DNA of 64,000 nucleotides from Zoogloea sp. 1C4 (GTDB taxonomy: Bacteria > Pseudomonadota > Gammaproteobacteria > Burkholderiales > Rhodocyclaceae), in the NCBI RefSeq assembly GCF_009469605.1, contig NZ_SSXU01000017.1, positions 1 through 64,000 of the forward strand, written 5' to 3'. Under the pieces are notes generated by a model, which saw only the letters and a program-made list of their open reading frames with translations, was not told the DNA's origin and searched no databases. Positions 57,610-64,000 of the stretch are shown here, in pieces (within the stretch, counting starts at the first letter, position 1; the number at the start of each line of letters is the position of its first letter). Both the position numbers and the translations under genes were made by a program.

Positions 57610-59298
57610 ATGAACACGACGACAGTGGATGCCGTATCAGGCGGCATCGAGAGTGGCGGCGCGACGCTCCACCGCCGGATAGGCTGGGCCGGCGCCTTCT
57701 GGGTGGCCAGCGGCGTACCGGCGCTGGTGCTTTTCTCCATCGGCTCCATCGCCGCCACGGTGGGCAAGCCGTCGTGGGCGGTGTGGATCATCTCCATCGC
57801 CTTCGGCTTCCTGCAGTCCTTCACCTACGCCGAGATCGCCGGGTTGTTCCCGCACAAGTCGGGCGGCGCGTCGGTGTATGGGGCGGTGGCCTGGGTGCGC
57901 TACAGCAAGATGCTGGCGCCGCTCTCGGTGTGGTGTAACTGGCTGGCGTGGTCGCCGGTGCTGGCGATCGGCTCGGGGCTGGCGGCGGGCTACATCCTGT
58001 CGATCCTGTTCGCGCCGGACGCCGCCATCAACACCTGGCAGATCACCCTGATGGACCTGGGCTTCATCAAGGGCGGCCTGGCGCTGCGGGTGAACGCCAC
58101 CTTCGTGGTGGGCGCCGCGGTGCTGCTGGCGGCCTTCGCGATCCAGCACCGGGGCATCCTGCAGGCGGCGCGCATGCAGATGGTGCTGGGCGTCGCCGCC
58201 CTCGCCCCGCTGATGCTGATCGGCCTGTGGCCGCTGGTTTCTGGTGACGTGCCGGGTGCCAACCTGGCGCCGCTCTACCCCCTCGCCAAGGACGCCGGCG
58301 GGGCGGTGATCGACGGCGCCTGGGACATGGCCGGCTTCACCCTCATCGCCGGCGGGCTGTTCATGGCCGCGTGGTCCACCTACGGCTTCGAGACGGCGGT
58401 GTGCTACACCCGCGAGTTCCGCAACCCGCGCACCGACACCTTCAAGGCCATCCTGTACTCGGGCCTGCTGTGCATCTTCGTGTTCACCGTGGTGCCCCTC
58501 GCCTTCCAGGGCAGCCTGGGCCTGGGCCAGCTGGTCACCCCGGCGGTGCTCGACGCCGCCGGCAACGTGGTCACCCCCGCGGTGTACGACGGTATCCTGT
58601 CGCCGGACATCTACAGCGGCATGGGCGTGGCCCAGGCCATGGCCCACATGCTGGGCGGCGGCCCGCTGGTCGAGCACGTGCTGATGGCCATGCTGGTGCT
58701 GGCCCTGGTGCTGTCGATCATGACCTCCATGGCCGGCTCGTCCCGCACCCTCTACCAGGCCTCGGTGGATGGCTGGCTGCCCAAGTACCTCTCCAACGTC
58801 AATGGCAACGGCGCCCCCACCGCCGCGATGTGGACGGATCTGGGCTTCAACCTGCTCCTGCTGCTGATGTCCGACTACGTGTTCGTGCTGGCCATCTCCA
58901 ACGTCTGCTACATCCTCTTCAACTTCCTCAACCTCAACGCCGCCTGGATCCACCGCATCGACCGCCCGCGCTGGCCGCGCCCCTACCGCGCGCCCACCTG
59001 GCTGATCGCCGTGGGTACCGTGCTGGCCTTCGTCAATCTGGCGCTGATGGGCATGGGCGCCGACATCTGGGGCGCCGGCACCCTGGCCACCGGCCTGCTG
59101 GCGGCGGCGCTGATCCTGCCGGTGTTCTTCTACCGCCACTACATCGTCGACAAGGGCCAGTTCCCGGCGGCGATGCTCGAAGACATGCACCTGGGCAGCG
59201 AATCGGGCGTCGGCACCCGCGCCGGCATCCTCCCCTGGCTCACCCTGGTCGGTGGCGCTGCGGTGATCGCCATCGCCCACGCCGTGGCCGTGATCTGA
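57610..59298 (+). CDS. APC-superfamily amino acid/amine permease
   Basis: A 562-residue inner-membrane carrier with about twelve to fourteen spans. The first helix carries the GAFWVASGVPALVLFSIGSI break typical of APC transporters; YGFETAVCYTREFRNPRTD and LSIMTSMAGSSRTLYQAS follow, the latter diagnostic of amino acid permeases. It imports an amino acid or amine; the following N-demethylase genes suggest an N-methylated one. The next gene starts 13 bases after its stop. Preceded by GAGG at 57597-57600. Confidence 0.87.
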   Translation: MNTTTVDAVSGGIESGGATLHRRIGWAGAFWVASGVPALVLFSIGSIAATVGKPSWAVWIISIAFGFLQSFTYAEIAGLFPHKSGGASVYGAVAWVRYSKMLAPLSVWCNWLAWSPVLAIGSGLAAGYILSILFAPDAAINTWQITLMDLGFIKGGLALRVNATFVVGAAVLLAAFAIQHRGILQAARMQMVLGVAALAPLMLIGLWPLVSGDVPGANLAPLYPLAKDAGGAVIDGAWDMAGFTLIAGGLFMAAWSTYGFETAVCYTREFRNPRTDTFKAILYSGLLCIFVFTVVPLAFQGSLGLGQLVTPAVLDAAGNVVTPAVYDGILSPDIYSGMGVAQAMAHMLGGGPLVEHVLMAMLVLALVLSIMTSMAGSSRTLYQASVDGWLPKYLSNVNGNGAPTAAMWTDLGFNLLLLLMSDYVFVLAISNVCYILFNFLNLNAAWIHRIDRPRWPRPYRAPTWLIAVGTVLAFVNLALMGMGADIWGAGTLATGLLAAALILPVFFYRHYIVDKGQFPAAMLEDMHLGSESGVGTRAGILPWLTLVGGAAVIAIAHAVAVI

Positions 59299-59311: not shown

Positions 59312-59896
59312 ATGATGATCTCCGACATCAAGAGCCGCCCGATCTACCGCGACCTGGCCCCCGAACCCACCGCCAGCGGCCACCTGCTGGTGGTCGAGGG
59401 CGAGACCCTCACCCCGGCCCTGCTGGCCGCCTTCGCCAGCGCCTTCGGGCCGGTGGCGCCGCGGCTCCACATCTGGCTCGTGGGCGGCCCGCAAGACGTG
59501 GGCGCCCACCCGGGCCGACTGTGGCGGCTTGGCAGCCTGGCCGACGTGGAGGACAGCCTCTCCTGCGCCAGCCGCGGTTTCGGCATCGGCGACCGCCTGT
59601 ACGTGAGCGGCACCGAGCCCTTCCTGTGGCGCGTGGCCGAGGCCGCCGGCCATGTGGGTTTCGCCAGCGGGCAGATCCAGCTCCACCACGCCGGCAGCCT
59701 GCGCCGCCGGGTGTGGTGCACCCACTGCCACAGCATCACCGACGACGTGACCACCCACATCGCCGACTGCGCCGGCTGCGGCCGCCACCTGCTGGTGCGC
59801 GACCACTTCTCCCGCCGCCTGGGCGCCTTCATGGGCGTGATGGTGGATGCCGAGGCGCCCGGCCAGGTACCCGCCCGCGAGGAGGTCTTCGCATGA
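59312..59896 (+). CDS. dmmA: DmmA-like subunit of a dimethylamine monooxygenase/oxidative N-demethylase
   Basis: A 194-residue protein matching the DmmA-like family. The N-terminal half is a Rossmann-like domain (LLVVEGETLTPALLAAFASA); the C-terminal half carries a zinc-ribbon: CTHCHSITDDVTTHIADC and GCGRHLL, four cysteines spaced as CxxC...CxxC. In known systems this subunit works with a heme PAS-fold catalytic subunit and an FNR-type reductase, both of which follow here. Overlaps the reductase by 4 nt. Confidence 0.75.
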   Translation: MMISDIKSRPIYRDLAPEPTASGHLLVVEGETLTPALLAAFASAFGPVAPRLHIWLVGGPQDVGAHPGRLWRLGSLADVEDSLSCASRGFGIGDRLYVSGTEPFLWRVAEAAGHVGFASGQIQLHHAGSLRRRVWCTHCHSITDDVTTHIADCAGCGRHLLVRDHFSRRLGAFMGVMVDAEAPGQVPAREEVFA

Positions 59897-60843
59897 TCGG
59901 CGACACCCTCCTGCTGCGGGTGGATGCGGCCACCGCCATCGCCCCCACCCTGCGCCACCTGCGCCTGGTGGCGGCGGACGGCGGCAAGCTGCCCCCGGCC
60001 TCGGCCGGCGCCCATGTGCAGCTCAGCCTCAAGGCCGCGGCGCGCACCCACCGCAACGCCTACTCGCTGGTCAGCCGCCCCGGCGCCCGCGACGCCTACG
60101 AGATCATCGTGCGGCGCGTCGAAGCCTCCCGCGGCGGCTCGGCCTTCATACACGAGCAGCTCGCGGTGGGCGACACCGTCGAGGCCGCGTGGCCGGGCAA
60201 CCTCTTCCCCCCGGTGCGCACCGCCCGCCACCAGCTGATGGTCGCCGGCGGCATCGGCATCACGCCCTTCCTGTCATACCTGGCCGAGTTCGGCCTGAGC
60301 GGCGCGTCCCACGCGCTGCATGTGTGCTGCCGGCCGGACGAACGCGAGGTGTTCGCCCCGTGGCTACCGGAGGGCGCCAATGTGGACTTCCACTGGGACG
60401 CCGACGGCCACCGGCTCGACATCCCCGCCCTCCTCGCCGCCCAGCAGGCCGGCACCCACCTCTACGTGTGCGGCCCGGCGGCCATGAACGATGCGGTGAT
60501 CGCCGCCGCCCGCGACGCCGGCTGGCCCGACAGCCACGTGCATTGCGAGCACTTCGGCACCGCCCTCAGCGGCGGCGAGGCCTTCCGCGCCTTCCTCGCC
60601 CGCTCCGGCATCGAGGTGAGCGTGGGCGAGGACGAGAGCCTGCTCGAAGCCATCGAGCGCGCCGGCGTGGCCGCCCCCTGCCTGTGCCGCGGCGGCGCCT
60701 GCGGCGTATGCGCGACGCCGCTGCTCGAAGGCGACGCCGAACACCGCGACCACTTCCTGTCCCCCACCGAGCGCGAAAGCGGCCGCCTGATCATGCCCTG
60801 CGTATCTCGGGCGCGCTCGGGACGGCTCGTGCTGGACCTGTGA
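59893..60843 (+). CDS. PDR/VanB-type ferredoxin reductase (N-demethylase electron-transfer subunit)
   Basis: A 316-residue flavin/iron-sulfur reductase. The FMN-binding barrel holds RNAYSLVSRPG, the NAD domain MVAGGIGITPFLSYL and VCGPAAMNDAV, and the C-terminal plant-type 2Fe-2S domain shows CLCRGGACGVC followed by a later Cys near CVSRA. It passes electrons from NADH to the heme oxygenase subunit. Coupled to the dmmA-like gene by ATGA; the alpha subunit gene starts 20 bases later. Confidence 0.87.
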   Translation: MIGDTLLLRVDAATAIAPTLRHLRLVAADGGKLPPASAGAHVQLSLKAAARTHRNAYSLVSRPGARDAYEIIVRRVEASRGGSAFIHEQLAVGDTVEAAWPGNLFPPVRTARHQLMVAGGIGITPFLSYLAEFGLSGASHALHVCCRPDEREVFAPWLPEGANVDFHWDADGHRLDIPALLAAQQAGTHLYVCGPAAMNDAVIAAARDAGWPDSHVHCEHFGTALSGGEAFRAFLARSGIEVSVGEDESLLEAIERAGVAAPCLCRGGACGVCATPLLEGDAEHRDHFLSPTERESGRLIMPCVSRARSGRLVLDL

Positions 60844-60863
60844 CCCTGCCCCGGAGACCCATC

Positions 60864-61940
60864 ATGACCCTCGCCTTCAAGCCCGACGAAACCTTCCGCG
60901 GCGACTACACCTACCGCAACAGCGACGCCGCGATCCTGCGTTTCCCCTTCCCCTTCCCGGAAGACCGCTACATGTACAGCGTCAACATCGAGCCGCACAC
61001 CCGCAGCGGCCCGACCGACGTCTTCCGCCGCCCCTTCGACGTGGATGAGCACTACATCGCCGAATGTCGCGACAAGGCCATCACGCTGGAGCGCGACCCC
61101 AGCCGCTGCCAGGCCCTGCCCCACATGATGCTGGCCCAGTGGGACACCCTCGAGCTGCTGATGGAGAGCCTCGCCGCCGATTACCCGGCCCACTTCGCCC
61201 TCATCAAGGAAGGCGACGACTTCGGCAGTCGGTGGACGTGGATCAACCGCCCGCTGGGCATCGAGCAGAGCTTCATCTTCGGCAACCCCGACACCCTACC
61301 CTGCGAGCCCTTCGAGTACATCACCCGCCAGGCCCAGGGCGACTTCGCCATCTGCGACCAGCGCGACAACAACCTCTTCATGGACGCCGGGATGGTCACC
61401 TCCCAGGCCGACTGGTCGCTGGCGTTCGACGTGGGCATGAGCTTCATGGAATGGCACGGCCCGGTGCCCCTGGCCCACCAGGCCGGCGTCTTCGAGCGGG
61501 CGCTGAAGTTCCTGCTGATGCTTCGCCTGGGCCAGCCGATGCGCCGCCTCAACTGGACGATGACCATCAACCCGCGCCTCGACACCTCGCCCGAGAGCTA
61601 CCCCGAGTGGGGCCCGGACCGCGCCAGCCTCACCCCGGACAACATCGGCCGCAAGCTGCACCTGCGCGTCGAGCTGCAGACCCTGTGGCGGCTCCCCCGC
61701 AGCAACGCGATCCTGTTCCCGATCCGCTGCTACCTCGCCTCCCTCGACGAGCTGGCCCGCGTGCCCAAGTGGGGCGCCCGCCTTCACCGGGTGCTCTCCA
61801 CGCTGCCGCCAGAGCTCGTCGACTACAAGGGCCTCACCCGCTTCCTGCCCACCGCGCTGGACTGGCTCGCCGCCCACGACGACGGCCGCGAGCTGCCCAT
61901 CGGCATCGAGCCGGGCATCGCCACCCTGACACCGCGCTGA
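60864..61940 (+). CDS. Heme-dependent oxidative N-demethylase alpha subunit family (DUF3445)
   Basis: A 358-residue protein of the DUF3445 family, in which a PAS-like fold binds heme and oxidatively demethylates a secondary amine such as dimethylamine. Visible features: MYSVNIEPHTRSGPTDVFR, AQWDTLELLMESLAADYPA, FALIKEGDDFGSR, and NWTMTINPRLDTSPESY with LHLRVELQTLWRLPRSNAI. The exact heme ligand cannot be assigned by eye. GGAGA precedes ATG 60864. The following 148 bases hold a REPIN, which splits it from the dehydrogenase-like gene. Confidence 0.85.
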   Translation: MTLAFKPDETFRGDYTYRNSDAAILRFPFPFPEDRYMYSVNIEPHTRSGPTDVFRRPFDVDEHYIAECRDKAITLERDPSRCQALPHMMLAQWDTLELLMESLAADYPAHFALIKEGDDFGSRWTWINRPLGIEQSFIFGNPDTLPCEPFEYITRQAQGDFAICDQRDNNLFMDAGMVTSQADWSLAFDVGMSFMEWHGPVPLAHQAGVFERALKFLLMLRLGQPMRRLNWTMTINPRLDTSPESYPEWGPDRASLTPDNIGRKLHLRVELQTLWRLPRSNAILFPIRCYLASLDELARVPKWGARLHRVLSTLPPELVDYKGLTRFLPTALDWLAAHDDGRELPIGIEPGIATLTPR

Positions 61941-61955
61941 CCTGCCGGGGCGGCG

Positions 61956-62041
61956 GTAGGGGCGACTTCAGTCGCCCAAGGCCTCCACCCAACGGCATGT
62001 CGATGAACCAACCCACGGCGGGCGACTGAAGTCGCCCCTAC
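61956..62041. repeat. REPIN-like inverted pair, TTCA-loop type, second copy
   Basis: GTAG (61956-61959), stem GGGCGAC, loop TTCA, stem GTCGCCC to 61977; the inverted copy is at 62020-62041. Bases 61956-61977 are a perfect inverted repeat of 62020-62041. It keeps the GTAG foot and TTCA loop of the 1062-1134 element, while three stem pairs changed in a compensated way. It sits inside the putative N-demethylase operon. Confidence 0.75.
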
Positions 62042-62088
62042 AGCCCCACCCGAATTCCCTCTCAAACACTCACGCAAAGGAAACCACC

Positions 62089-63471
62089 ATGAACGCACCC
62101 ACCCAGATCACCCCCACCGGCATCGGCGCGGAATGGAGCCCCCAGTGGCTGCTCACCCCCGAGCAGCGCGCCCTGCAGGCCGACCTGATCGCCCTGTGCG
62201 AGACGACCCTGCGCCCCAACGCCATCGAGAGCGACAAGAAGTACATCTACCCGCGCAAGAACTTCGAGGCGCTGGCCTCGATGGGCCTGCTGAGCCTCAC
62301 CATCCCCAAGGAACTCGGCGGCCGCGGCGAGAGCCACGTGTGCGCCGCAATGGTGGTCGAGACCATCGCCCGCTACGGCTGCCCCTCCACCGCCATGTGC
62401 TACACCATGCACCTGGGCGCCTGCGCCGCCGCGCTCTTACGCCACCACGACAACGAACGCCTGAAGGACATCCTGCGCCGCGTGGATGAAGACGTGCTGA
62501 TCGGCACCCTGTCGTATTCCGACCCGGAGACCGGCTCCCACTTCTGGTACCCCATGTCGTCCCGCGCCGAGCGCACCGACAACGGCTGGAAGGTCTTCAA
62601 GAAGGCATCCTGGACCACCTCCGGCGGCTTTGCCGACTGGTACATCATCCAGACCACCTCGCCCGATTTCGGCGGCGACTACTCCAACCTCTCCTGCTTC
62701 CTCGTCACCAAGGACCAGATCCACGCCGACCCGGCCAACTGGGACGGCCTCGGGATGCGCGGCAACCAGTCCGGCCCGATCTCGGTGGATGGCGTCGACA
62801 TCGCCCCGGACGCGCTGGTCGGCCCCATCGGCGACGGCGCAAAATCCAACGACGAAGTGGTTGATCCCTTCTTCCTGGTGTGCTCGTCGGCCTGCTGGAA
62901 CGGCATCTGCCTCGCCGCCATGGACATCACCAAGAACCACACCACCCGCAAGGTGCACAACGACGTGGGCATGCGCGTGGCCGACTACCCGACCATCCAG
63001 GACTACGTGGGCGAGTGCCTGATCGACACCAACGCCAGCCGCAGCTACGTCTATCTCGCCGCCAAGGCGCTGGACGACCTCACCGACGGCTGCGACTGGT
63101 CGGCCCACGCGAAGATCGACCACCTGCCGCGCACCCAGATCCTCAACTGGCTGTGGCAGGTCAAGTTCTTCGCCTCCAAGAACGTCACCTACGTGGTGGA
63201 CAAGATGCTCCACGCCTGCGGCGGCACCGGCTACAAGCCCGCCCTGGGCATCGAGCGCCTGCTGCGCGACGGCAAGGCCGGCTGGGTGATGGGCCCCACC
63301 AACGAGGTGCTGCGCCAGTTCGTCGGCAAGGCCGCGCTGCTCGGCTTCGAGGTGCTGGATTACTGGAACCAGTCGGTCAACCAGCGCGTCCTCAACAACG
63401 AGCTCAAGAAGATGAGCAAGGACGAAAAAGCCGCCTTCGCCGCCAAGCTGCTGGCCGAAGCCCAGGCCTGA
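62089..63471 (+). CDS. Acyl-CoA dehydrogenase-fold protein lacking the catalytic glutamate
   Basis: A 460-residue flavoprotein of the ACAD fold, longer than the usual 380. Fold landmarks: MGLLSLTIPKELGGRGESHV, then GTLSYSDPETGSHFWYP, FKKASWTTSGGFADWYIIQT, and GIERLLRDGKAGWVMGPTNE. The usual YEGTNE with the catalytic Glu reads VMGPTNE here (Gly instead of Glu). The alternative Glu of isovaleryl/long-chain enzymes is Phe in FLVCSSACWNGICLA by eye alignment. Dehydrogenation is thus unlikely. With the flavin reductase that follows, a flavin-dependent monooxygenase or amine N-hydroxylase role fits better. Confidence 0.85.
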   Translation: MNAPTQITPTGIGAEWSPQWLLTPEQRALQADLIALCETTLRPNAIESDKKYIYPRKNFEALASMGLLSLTIPKELGGRGESHVCAAMVVETIARYGCPSTAMCYTMHLGACAAALLRHHDNERLKDILRRVDEDVLIGTLSYSDPETGSHFWYPMSSRAERTDNGWKVFKKASWTTSGGFADWYIIQTTSPDFGGDYSNLSCFLVTKDQIHADPANWDGLGMRGNQSGPISVDGVDIAPDALVGPIGDGAKSNDEVVDPFFLVCSSACWNGICLAAMDITKNHTTRKVHNDVGMRVADYPTIQDYVGECLIDTNASRSYVYLAAKALDDLTDGCDWSAHAKIDHLPRTQILNWLWQVKFFASKNVTYVVDKMLHACGGTGYKPALGIERLLRDGKAGWVMGPTNEVLRQFVGKAALLGFEVLDYWNQSVNQRVLNNELKKMSKDEKAAFAAKLLAEAQA

Positions 63472-63529
63472 CGCAACCCGGGCCGTCCGCCGGGCGGCCC
63501 GCCCCTCCGCCCCCGAAAACGGAGACATC

Positions 63530-64000
63530 ATGACCACCGCCTTCTGCCCCTCCGCGCCAGCCGAGAACCTGCTCAGCGCCCCCTTCGACGCCCGCCTGTT
63601 CCGCCGCGTGCTGGGACTCTTCCCCACCGGCGTCACCATCGTCACCACCTGGGATGCCGACGGCCGGCCGGTTGGCGCCACCGTCAGCTCCTTCAACTCG
63701 GTGTCCCTCACGCCGCCGCTGGTGCTGTTCAGCCTGGCCTGCGAGAGCGCCGCCTGCGAGGTGTTCTCGGGCGGCGGGCCGCTGGCAATCCACGTGCTCG
63801 GCCACGAGCAGGAAGCCCTCTCCAACCGCTTCGCCCGGGGCGGCGCCGAGAAATGGGCCGATCTGGTGTATGGCACAGGCGAGCTGGGCAGCCCGCTGCT
63901 GGAAGGCGCCCTCGCCACCTTCGAATGCGTGCCCTACGCCCGCTACCCCGGCGGCGACCACACCATCTTCGTATGCGAGGTGCGCGGCCTGCGCTTCCGC
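63530..64000 (+). CDS. Flavin reductase domain protein (partial, cut by window end)
   Basis: At least 157 residues of an HpaC-like flavin reductase: FRRVLGLFPTGVTIVTTWDA, GATVSSFNSVSLTPPLVLFS and IHVLGHEQEALSNRFARG. It supplies reduced FMN or FAD to a partner monooxygenase, here most simply the ACAD-fold protein 58 bases upstream. GGAG lies at 63521-63524 before the ATG. The gene runs off the window, so the C-terminus is not seen. Confidence 0.88.
   Translation, partial: MTTAFCPSAPAENLLSAPFDARLFRRVLGLFPTGVTIVTTWDADGRPVGATVSSFNSVSLTPPLVLFSLACESAACEVFSGGGPLAIHVLGHEQEALSNRFARGGAEKWADLVYGTGELGSPLLEGALATFECVPYARYPGGDHTIFVCEVRGLRFR

Follow-up and report, generated by a model that had tools for sequence, protein, structure and literature searches.

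In Ruegeria pomeroyi and Methylocella silvestris, trimethylamine (TMA) is converted through trimethylamine N-oxide (TMAO) and dimethylamine to methylamine by the Tmm-Tdm-Dmm pathway, which comprises, in the parts of the two source papers available to us (PMC5520151, PMC13390433), the one-protein FAD/NADPH monooxygenase Tmm as first enzyme, followed by Tdm, DmmABC, and a GmaS-type synthetase. The same excerpts name TmoXWV as the TMAO carrier of R. pomeroyi, and PMC5520151, as far as available, reports the conversion of dimethylamine to methylamine by R. pomeroyi DmmABC in E. coli. The other systems with which we compare our locus are the group D two-component enzymes of Acinetobacter baylyi, which have the fold of the acyl-CoA dehydrogenases (ACADs) and, according to the available part of PMC13352529, oxidize dimethyl sulfide to dimethyl sulfoxide. 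Here we describe a seven-gene operon of Zoogloea sp. 1C4 (genome G000, 5.0 Mb) that crosses the end of the window, as we call the whole stretch of 64,000 nucleotides that was analysed (contig NZ_SSXU01000017.1, positions 1 to 64,000). This organism shares Tdm, DmmABC, and the GmaS-type synthetase with the Tmm-Tdm-Dmm pathway and, as proposed here, the route from TMA to methylamine; a permease is its TMAO carrier, and in place of Tmm, which belongs to another protein family, the cluster encodes an ACAD-fold protein and a flavin reductase. It differs further in a Tdm-like protein without the N-terminal domain and in having no separate dmmD among its seven genes, which are the part of the genome searched for it.

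When the 20 kb beyond the window end are included, the complete unit consists of seven genes on the + strand in the order TMAO permease, dmmA, dmmB, dmmC, ACAD-fold gene, flavin reductase, and Tdm-like TMAO demethylase (Table 1), with 4-base overlaps at the dmmA/dmmB and flavin reductase/Tdm-like joints. The unit is closed by type I restriction genes, which follow on the opposite strand. These seven genes cover the conversion of TMAO to methylamine, while Tmm, the known enzyme for TMA to TMAO, is missing from the genome. Within the operon, the oxidation of TMA thus appears as a step without an enzyme, and the ACAD-fold protein and the flavin reductase appear as oxidative genes without a step. 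We propose, with a probability of roughly 73%, that these two proteins together make up a two-component trimethylamine monooxygenase that is not related to Tmm; the evidence for this proposal comes from genome comparison.

Five of the genes had been predicted between 59312 and 64000 in an earlier note on the window, and their places and families are borne out by the listing of open reading frames, by Pfam and NCBIfam profiles, and by matches to the PDB. That note named the parts well, including an oxidative N-demethylase core, which is confirmed by the DmmA-like matches (PF22289, PF22290, NF041259), the FNR/2Fe-2S reductase, and the heme subunit (PF11927 and PDB 5lte). It also placed the oxidation after the demethylation, an order that the genomes do not support. 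The permease and Tdm genes, which are the basis for placing oxygenation first, lie outside the interval that it covered.

The absence of Tmm from the Zoogloea genome follows from searches with a Tmm query and with the curated profile NF058570, which together rule out a Tmm hidden elsewhere in the genome. The query is sound (814 bits to NF058570, cut-off 675; PDB matches 6kbw, 5ipy, and 2xve, named trimethylamine or flavin-containing monooxygenases), NF058570 has no match in the genome at E <= 1e-40, and the single match to PF00743 is a partial one of 59-60 bits in a 577-aa protein. Neither the ACAD-fold protein nor the reductase belongs to the family of Tmm, defined as a protein like the flavin-containing monooxygenases that scores above the NF058570 cut-off; both fall in other families. 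The same pattern is seen across genomes. The curated Tmm is present in only 3 of 79 genomes with the ACAD gene (G841, G846, and G862; the positive control G547 was detected), and a separate search with the Tmm query found it in the same three among 49. Conversely, among the 31 Tdm-bearing genomes, other than that of Zoogloea sp. 1C4, of an even draw from the phylum, the ACAD gene was found in none at E <= 1e-60 (positive controls G195 and G308 detected), and 29 of these 31 have a Tmm match, with one in-frame TGA flagged in six of the 29 rows. The contrast between 3/79 and 29/31 gives a Fisher p of 7e-21, computed on rows that are related by descent and hence not independent. In the best Tdm tree, a quick tree of 81 rows from which nine near-duplicates were left out, the partner label of Tdm (ACAD or Tmm) changes at least six times by parsimony, and well-supported branches force four of these changes. 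The ACAD-fold protein thus seems to replace Tmm, the two being nearly mutually exclusive in the genomes compared.

Two of the 31 genomes have Tdm with neither partner: in G818 (locus L187) and G522 (L188), importer genes of the ProV/ProW-like kind come after Tdm, together with a substrate-binding protein and a divergent LacI-type regulator, both recognized by eye. We infer that these two organisms import TMAO and use only TMAO.

A scan of GTDB genomes returned 98 relatives of the ACAD-fold protein, so the pair is not peculiar to Zoogloea. The locus counts cover 80 of the 98 and are limited to the flanking DNA covered at each locus, which is short at some; the clade of each locus is the one named in its database record, many being metagenome-assembled genomes (MAGs). 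The flavin reductase profile also matched frames overlapping the ACAD gene, and matches below 170 bits were dropped before counting. Tdm is present at 60 of the 80 loci, with a median midpoint distance of 2.5 kb from the ACAD gene, the flavin reductase at 41, the HODM heme subunit at 24, and the permease at 21. The figures for Tdm and HODM also dispose of the idea that the ACAD-fold protein belongs with Dmm alone. Sixteen of the 20 loci without Tdm have less than 5 kb of flank on at least one side, and the remaining four (L101, L109, L113, L124) have more. At the level of whole genomes, 73 of the 78 further ACAD genomes examined have Tdm, versus 32 of 397 in the even draw from the phylum (G000 included).

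The proteobacterial carriers of the ACAD gene are Zoogloea, Azoarcus, Parazoarcus, Caballeronia, Xanthobacter, Aquabacter, Rhodospirillaceae, and other alphaproteobacteria, and further carriers belong to the Latescibacterota, Gemmatimonadota, Acidobacteria, Obscuribacterales, cyanobacteria, and a MAG of the Euryarchaeota. The gene is present in 3 of 369 genomes in a class-wide draw (G000 included, E <= 1e-60), and no match at E 1e-60 was found in a plasmid collection. Within the genus it is present in 14 of 23 genomes (E <= 1e-80; in G004 in two pieces), while the other 77 relatives scanned with them all lack it. HODM occurs in 15 of the 23, including all 14 with the ACAD gene; the only HODM genome without it, G006, is 82% complete. 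The seven-gene order is kept at all eight loci compared, from 8 of the 13 other same-genus ACAD genomes, which bears out the supposition of the earlier note that the two halves of the cluster belong together, and the Azoarcus and Parazoarcus loci have the identical order. In the Xanthobacteraceae loci L065, L066, L068, L070, and L127, where the flanks cover all of these genes, the ACAD pair comes first, followed by Tdm, with Dmm last. In one same-genus genome, G011, the set DmmA-DmmB-HODM-permease is present a second time, on the opposite strand and adjoining the seven-gene unit (L027:1869-6487), with no ACAD, reductase, or Tdm match within this further set. L055, a contig that its record assigns to a Thiobacillus MAG, carries genes 80-92% identical to those of the Zoogloea sp. 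1C4 operon and is perhaps misbinned.

The ACAD fold of the proposed oxygenase component is indicated by Pfam and by an AlphaFold model (pLDDT 83.2, pTM 0.86) that is sound overall as a prediction, with low-confidence loops at 146-153, 219-226, and 398-401. The closest PDB match of the model found by Foldseek is 3pfd, with 26% identity and TM scores of 0.88 and 0.71 when normalized by target and query length, respectively. In the 53 aligned family members, that of the window included, position 402, which corresponds to the glutamate of the YEGT motif, is Gly in 50 and Ala in 3, and position 261 is Phe in all. The latter was placed through HMMER alignments together with the motif of IVD, and we take it to be the catalytic glutamate site of IVD and LCAD. 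A catalytic glutamate at either position, as in acyl-CoA dehydrogenases, is therefore found in 0 of 53, just as the earlier note had said of the window's protein. Its further suggestions also stand: a glutamate-less ACAD adjoining a flavin reductase favours a flavin monooxygenase over a dehydrogenase, and a methylated amine is the likely substrate.

The Zoogloea locus combines three features looked for in a group D flavoprotein monooxygenase, namely the ACAD fold, a separate flavin reductase, and the lack of the catalytic glutamate. All NCBIfam matches of the ACAD-fold protein are below cut-off (FadE16 197 bits, DszC 54, HsaA 44, HPAH 34), as are those of the proposed reductase component, whose closest models are of the HpaC/HsaB/FerA type. 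With Dms1-3 and MsuE of A. baylyi, as described in the available part of PMC13352529, the pair shares the ACAD fold and the separate reductase and, as proposed for Zoogloea, would share the transfer of oxygen to a small methylated heteroatom. The A. baylyi enzymes differ in their sulfur substrate, in their role in sulfur assimilation, and in relying on one shared reductase, a comparison made by description. By analogy, their oxidation of dimethyl sulfide would be the closest precedent for N-oxygenation by an ACAD.

According to our proposal, the operon would provide a route from TMA and TMAO to monomethylamine. The flavin reductase would use NAD(P)H to yield free reduced flavin, which would be taken up by the ACAD-fold protein, having no glutamate for the abstraction of an alpha proton; a C4a-(hydro)peroxide formed with O2 would then deliver one oxygen atom to the nitrogen of TMA, yielding TMAO. 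We infer this use of reduced flavin from the family context and from the replacement of Tmm. The permease would additionally import TMAO, the Tdm-like protein would convert TMAO to dimethylamine and formaldehyde, DmmABC would convert dimethylamine to methylamine and formaldehyde, and a type III (GmaS-type) glutamine synthetase encoded elsewhere in the genome would take up the methylamine. For each step, and for the oxygenation above all, both substrate and chemistry are deduced from the genes. The most likely order, judging from the genomes, is N-oxygenation first, then Tdm, and then Dmm, because the ACAD-fold protein is found with Tdm more than with Dmm, because it occurs where Tmm is missing, and because Tmm precedes demethylation.

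Other explanations of the pair were weighed against these data. The sequence of events supposed by the earlier note, in which Dmm demethylates and the ACAD pair then oxidizes the product, agrees with the position of the Zoogloea pair directly 3' of dmmC, but it is hard to reconcile with the presence of HODM at far fewer ACAD loci than Tdm, with the frequency of Tdm in ACAD genomes, with the occurrence of the ACAD gene where Tmm is missing, and with the five Xanthobacteraceae loci in which the order runs from the pair through Tdm to Dmm; we regard it as very unlikely. Still less credible is that the ACAD gene stands in the operon incidentally and encodes an acyl-CoA dehydrogenase, whether ordinary or degenerate, or an amine dehydrogenase feeding ETF: the closest solved relatives of the protein are indeed dehydrogenases of the ACAD family, but the glutamate is missing from both catalytic sites in every aligned member, a flavin reductase adjoins the gene, and the association with Tdm spans phyla. 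The alternative that deserves most attention, although we consider it improbable, is that the pair, as a flavin monooxygenase, acts not on TMA but on another methylated amine that yields TMAO, dimethylamine, or formaldehyde, for instance another tertiary amine, or by N-hydroxylation of dimethylamine or methylamine. The substrate of the pair is deduced, several loci have importers of the Liv or ProXVW type, and the cyanobacterial cluster L108 includes creatininase-like and MOSC genes, all of which would suit such a substrate. Against it, the ACAD gene occurs where Tmm, which converts TMA to TMAO, is missing yet Tdm is kept, and dimethylamine is not an obvious substrate because the gene accompanies Tdm at loci showing no HODM.

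Several results also weigh against a two-component trimethylamine monooxygenase replacing Tmm. Tdm was not seen in five of the 78 further ACAD genomes (G308, G855, G871, G876, G892), and three ACAD genomes, named above, also carry Tmm. No flavin reductase is present within the covered flanks, some of them short, at 39 of the 80 loci, including all 17 cyanobacterial loci and 17 of the 24 assigned to other Alphaproteobacteria/Proteobacteria. Both sequence and fold place the ACAD family closer to acyl-CoA dehydrogenases than to the known group D monooxygenases. The quick Tdm tree carries long-branch warnings; its well-supported branches force four partner changes, in the Tmm group, instead of six, and six Tmm rows are stop-flagged. 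The two labels are strongly clustered on it (9 and 6 changes versus shuffled means of 25.8 and 23.8). On starred branches there are four independent pairs, of which, on average, 0 change the same way, 3.2 the opposite way, and 0.8 are undecided, and the sign test on these pairs (p 0.125-0.5) is not significant alone. The findings on Tdm, Tmm, the flavin reductase, and sequence and fold are compatible with a trimethylamine monooxygenase, given that the reductase can be encoded elsewhere and that TMAO can be an end product.

If the pair is a trimethylamine monooxygenase, the pathway itself is already known and its first-step enzyme would be new. A new type of trimethylamine oxygenase is probable. 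Among the matches listed, drawn from open-licence PMC papers without preprints and available in part, no ACAD-type TMA monooxygenase is described, and the accessible portions of PMC11446756, PMC4543880, and PMC12195410 name only Tmm or no gene and mention no ACAD-type TMA enzyme. We found no record of growth of X. aminoxidans on TMA among the matches listed, and the main text of PMC9387252 contains neither "methylamine" nor "trimethyl". We also think it rather probable that trimethylamine monooxygenases include a second class, unrelated to the first, ACAD-fold and two-component, that has been swapped with Tmm several times during evolution and serves the step from TMA to TMAO in Zoogloea, Azoarcus, Caballeronia, Xanthobacter, uncultured Rhodospirillaceae, Latescibacterota, Gemmatimonadota, and cyanobacteria. 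TMA use in these organisms would then escape surveys of tmm, and methylated amines may serve some cyanobacteria as a nitrogen source. Bacteria without tmm, cyanobacteria included, would have been overlooked as TMA oxidizers, and primary metabolism would have made of an ACAD scaffold an enzyme that N-oxygenates a very small amine. The finding supplies a marker gene, and the two genes of the pair lend themselves to a direct assay.

Table 1. Features of the seven-gene unit of Zoogloea sp. 1C4 (positions in the contig; scores in bits)
Feature	Position	Strand	Evidence
TMAO permease (APC family)	57610-59298	+	NF053774 846.6 (cut-off 690); PF13520; 13 bases before dmmA
DmmA-like zinc-ribbon subunit, dimethylamine monooxygenase	59312-59896	+	PF22289 76.9, PF22290 51.7, NF041259 103.4, all above cut-off
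DmmB-like FNR-type reductase, C-terminal 2Fe-2S	59893-60843	+	PF00111 51.3, PF00175 26.1, both above cut-off
DmmC-like heme subunit (HODM alpha)	60864-61940	+	PF11927 226.5; PDB 5lte, E 8e-150, residues 1-339
Inverted repeat between dmmC and the ACAD gene	61947-62050		31-nt arms, 90% complementary, 42-nt spacer
ACAD-fold protein without catalytic Glu (proposed oxygenase component, trimethylamine monooxygenase)	62089-63471	+	PF02771 and PF00441 above cut-off; AlphaFold model
Flavin reductase (proposed reductase component)	63530-64069 (window ends at 64000)	+	PF01613 125.5; full frame read past the window
Tdm-like protein	64066-65976 (L003:66-1976), beyond the window	+	NF053776 1073.1 (cut-off 1100)

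The neighbouring genes agree with the proposed route. The permease scores well above the cut-off of the TMAO permease profile, and a DmmA-type zinc ribbon, an FNR/2Fe-2S reductase, and a HODM heme subunit are encoded in one operon, as expected for DmmABC. The reductase is named DmmB because of its position and neighbouring genes: its FAD-binding domain match (PF00970, 20.6 bits) is slightly below the cut-off of 21.1, and a scan of NCBIfam equivalogs returned none above cut-off. The likeness of the dmmC product to 5lte, which we take to be from Pseudomonas, concerns the heme subunit only. Elsewhere in the genome there is a type III glutamine synthetase (TIGR03105, 644.5 bits, cut-off 469.6), a family that we assume includes GmaS. 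Over residues 8-635, the Tdm-like protein matches 9q59 and 9q5a, which are structures of TMAO demethylase; we file it as Tdm-like because its score is below the NF053776 cut-off and because the profile is matched only from position 156 of 763 onwards, the N-terminal DUF1989-like domain being missing. It keeps all five Zn/Fe residues, C263, H276, C279, C343, and D346, whose numbering and roles are those of PMC12560246, as far as available; the first four are present in 90 of 90 aligned Tdm proteins and D346 in 81 of 90. The available part of the same paper calls the first domain of Tdm ubiquitous. In the Tdm proteins of the Azoarcus, Caballeronia, and cyanobacterial ACAD genomes, the match starts at 107-158 of 763, and the N-terminal domain is therefore missing, whereas in all 31 from genomes without the ACAD gene it starts at 4-12.

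Other ACAD loci have neighbours of their own. In Stenomitos frigidus (L108:7952-20348), the cluster comprises an ammonium-transporter-like gene (by eye), the ACAD gene, creatininase-like, MOSC, and Tdm-like genes, a TMAO-permease-like gene (600 bits, below the cut-off of 690), two glutamine-synthetase-like genes, the first above the TIGR03105 cut-off, and a gene for a 189-aa protein that matches no family; this content suggests that methylated amines are used as nitrogen. Genes for Liv-type binding proteins or transporters adjoin the ACAD gene at L071, L082, L087, L093, L097, L111, and L022:3295-7788, with LivJ on the opposite strand at the first six, and the substrate there is possibly a methylated amine. 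Two ACAD homologues come from genomes without Tdm, that of L101 (the Euryarchaeota MAG), which has a flavin reductase, and that of L023 (G308), which adjoins two related genes; TMAO may be the end product in these cases, or the bins may be mixed.

Within the Zoogloea operon, the inverted repeat contains an 18-base sequence that forms a perfect inverted pair at 61959-62038 and is found nowhere else in the window with up to two mismatches, making it a candidate REP-like (repetitive extragenic palindrome) element or transcript hairpin. Just beyond the operon, genes for HsdR, HsdS, and HsdM lie at L003:2047-10565 (contig 66047-74565), with genes for a PtuA-like ATPase (256 bits, below its cut-off, 500) and a PtuB/HNH-like protein between hsdR and hsdS; the restriction genes and the PtuA/PtuB-like pair are a possible composite defence island.

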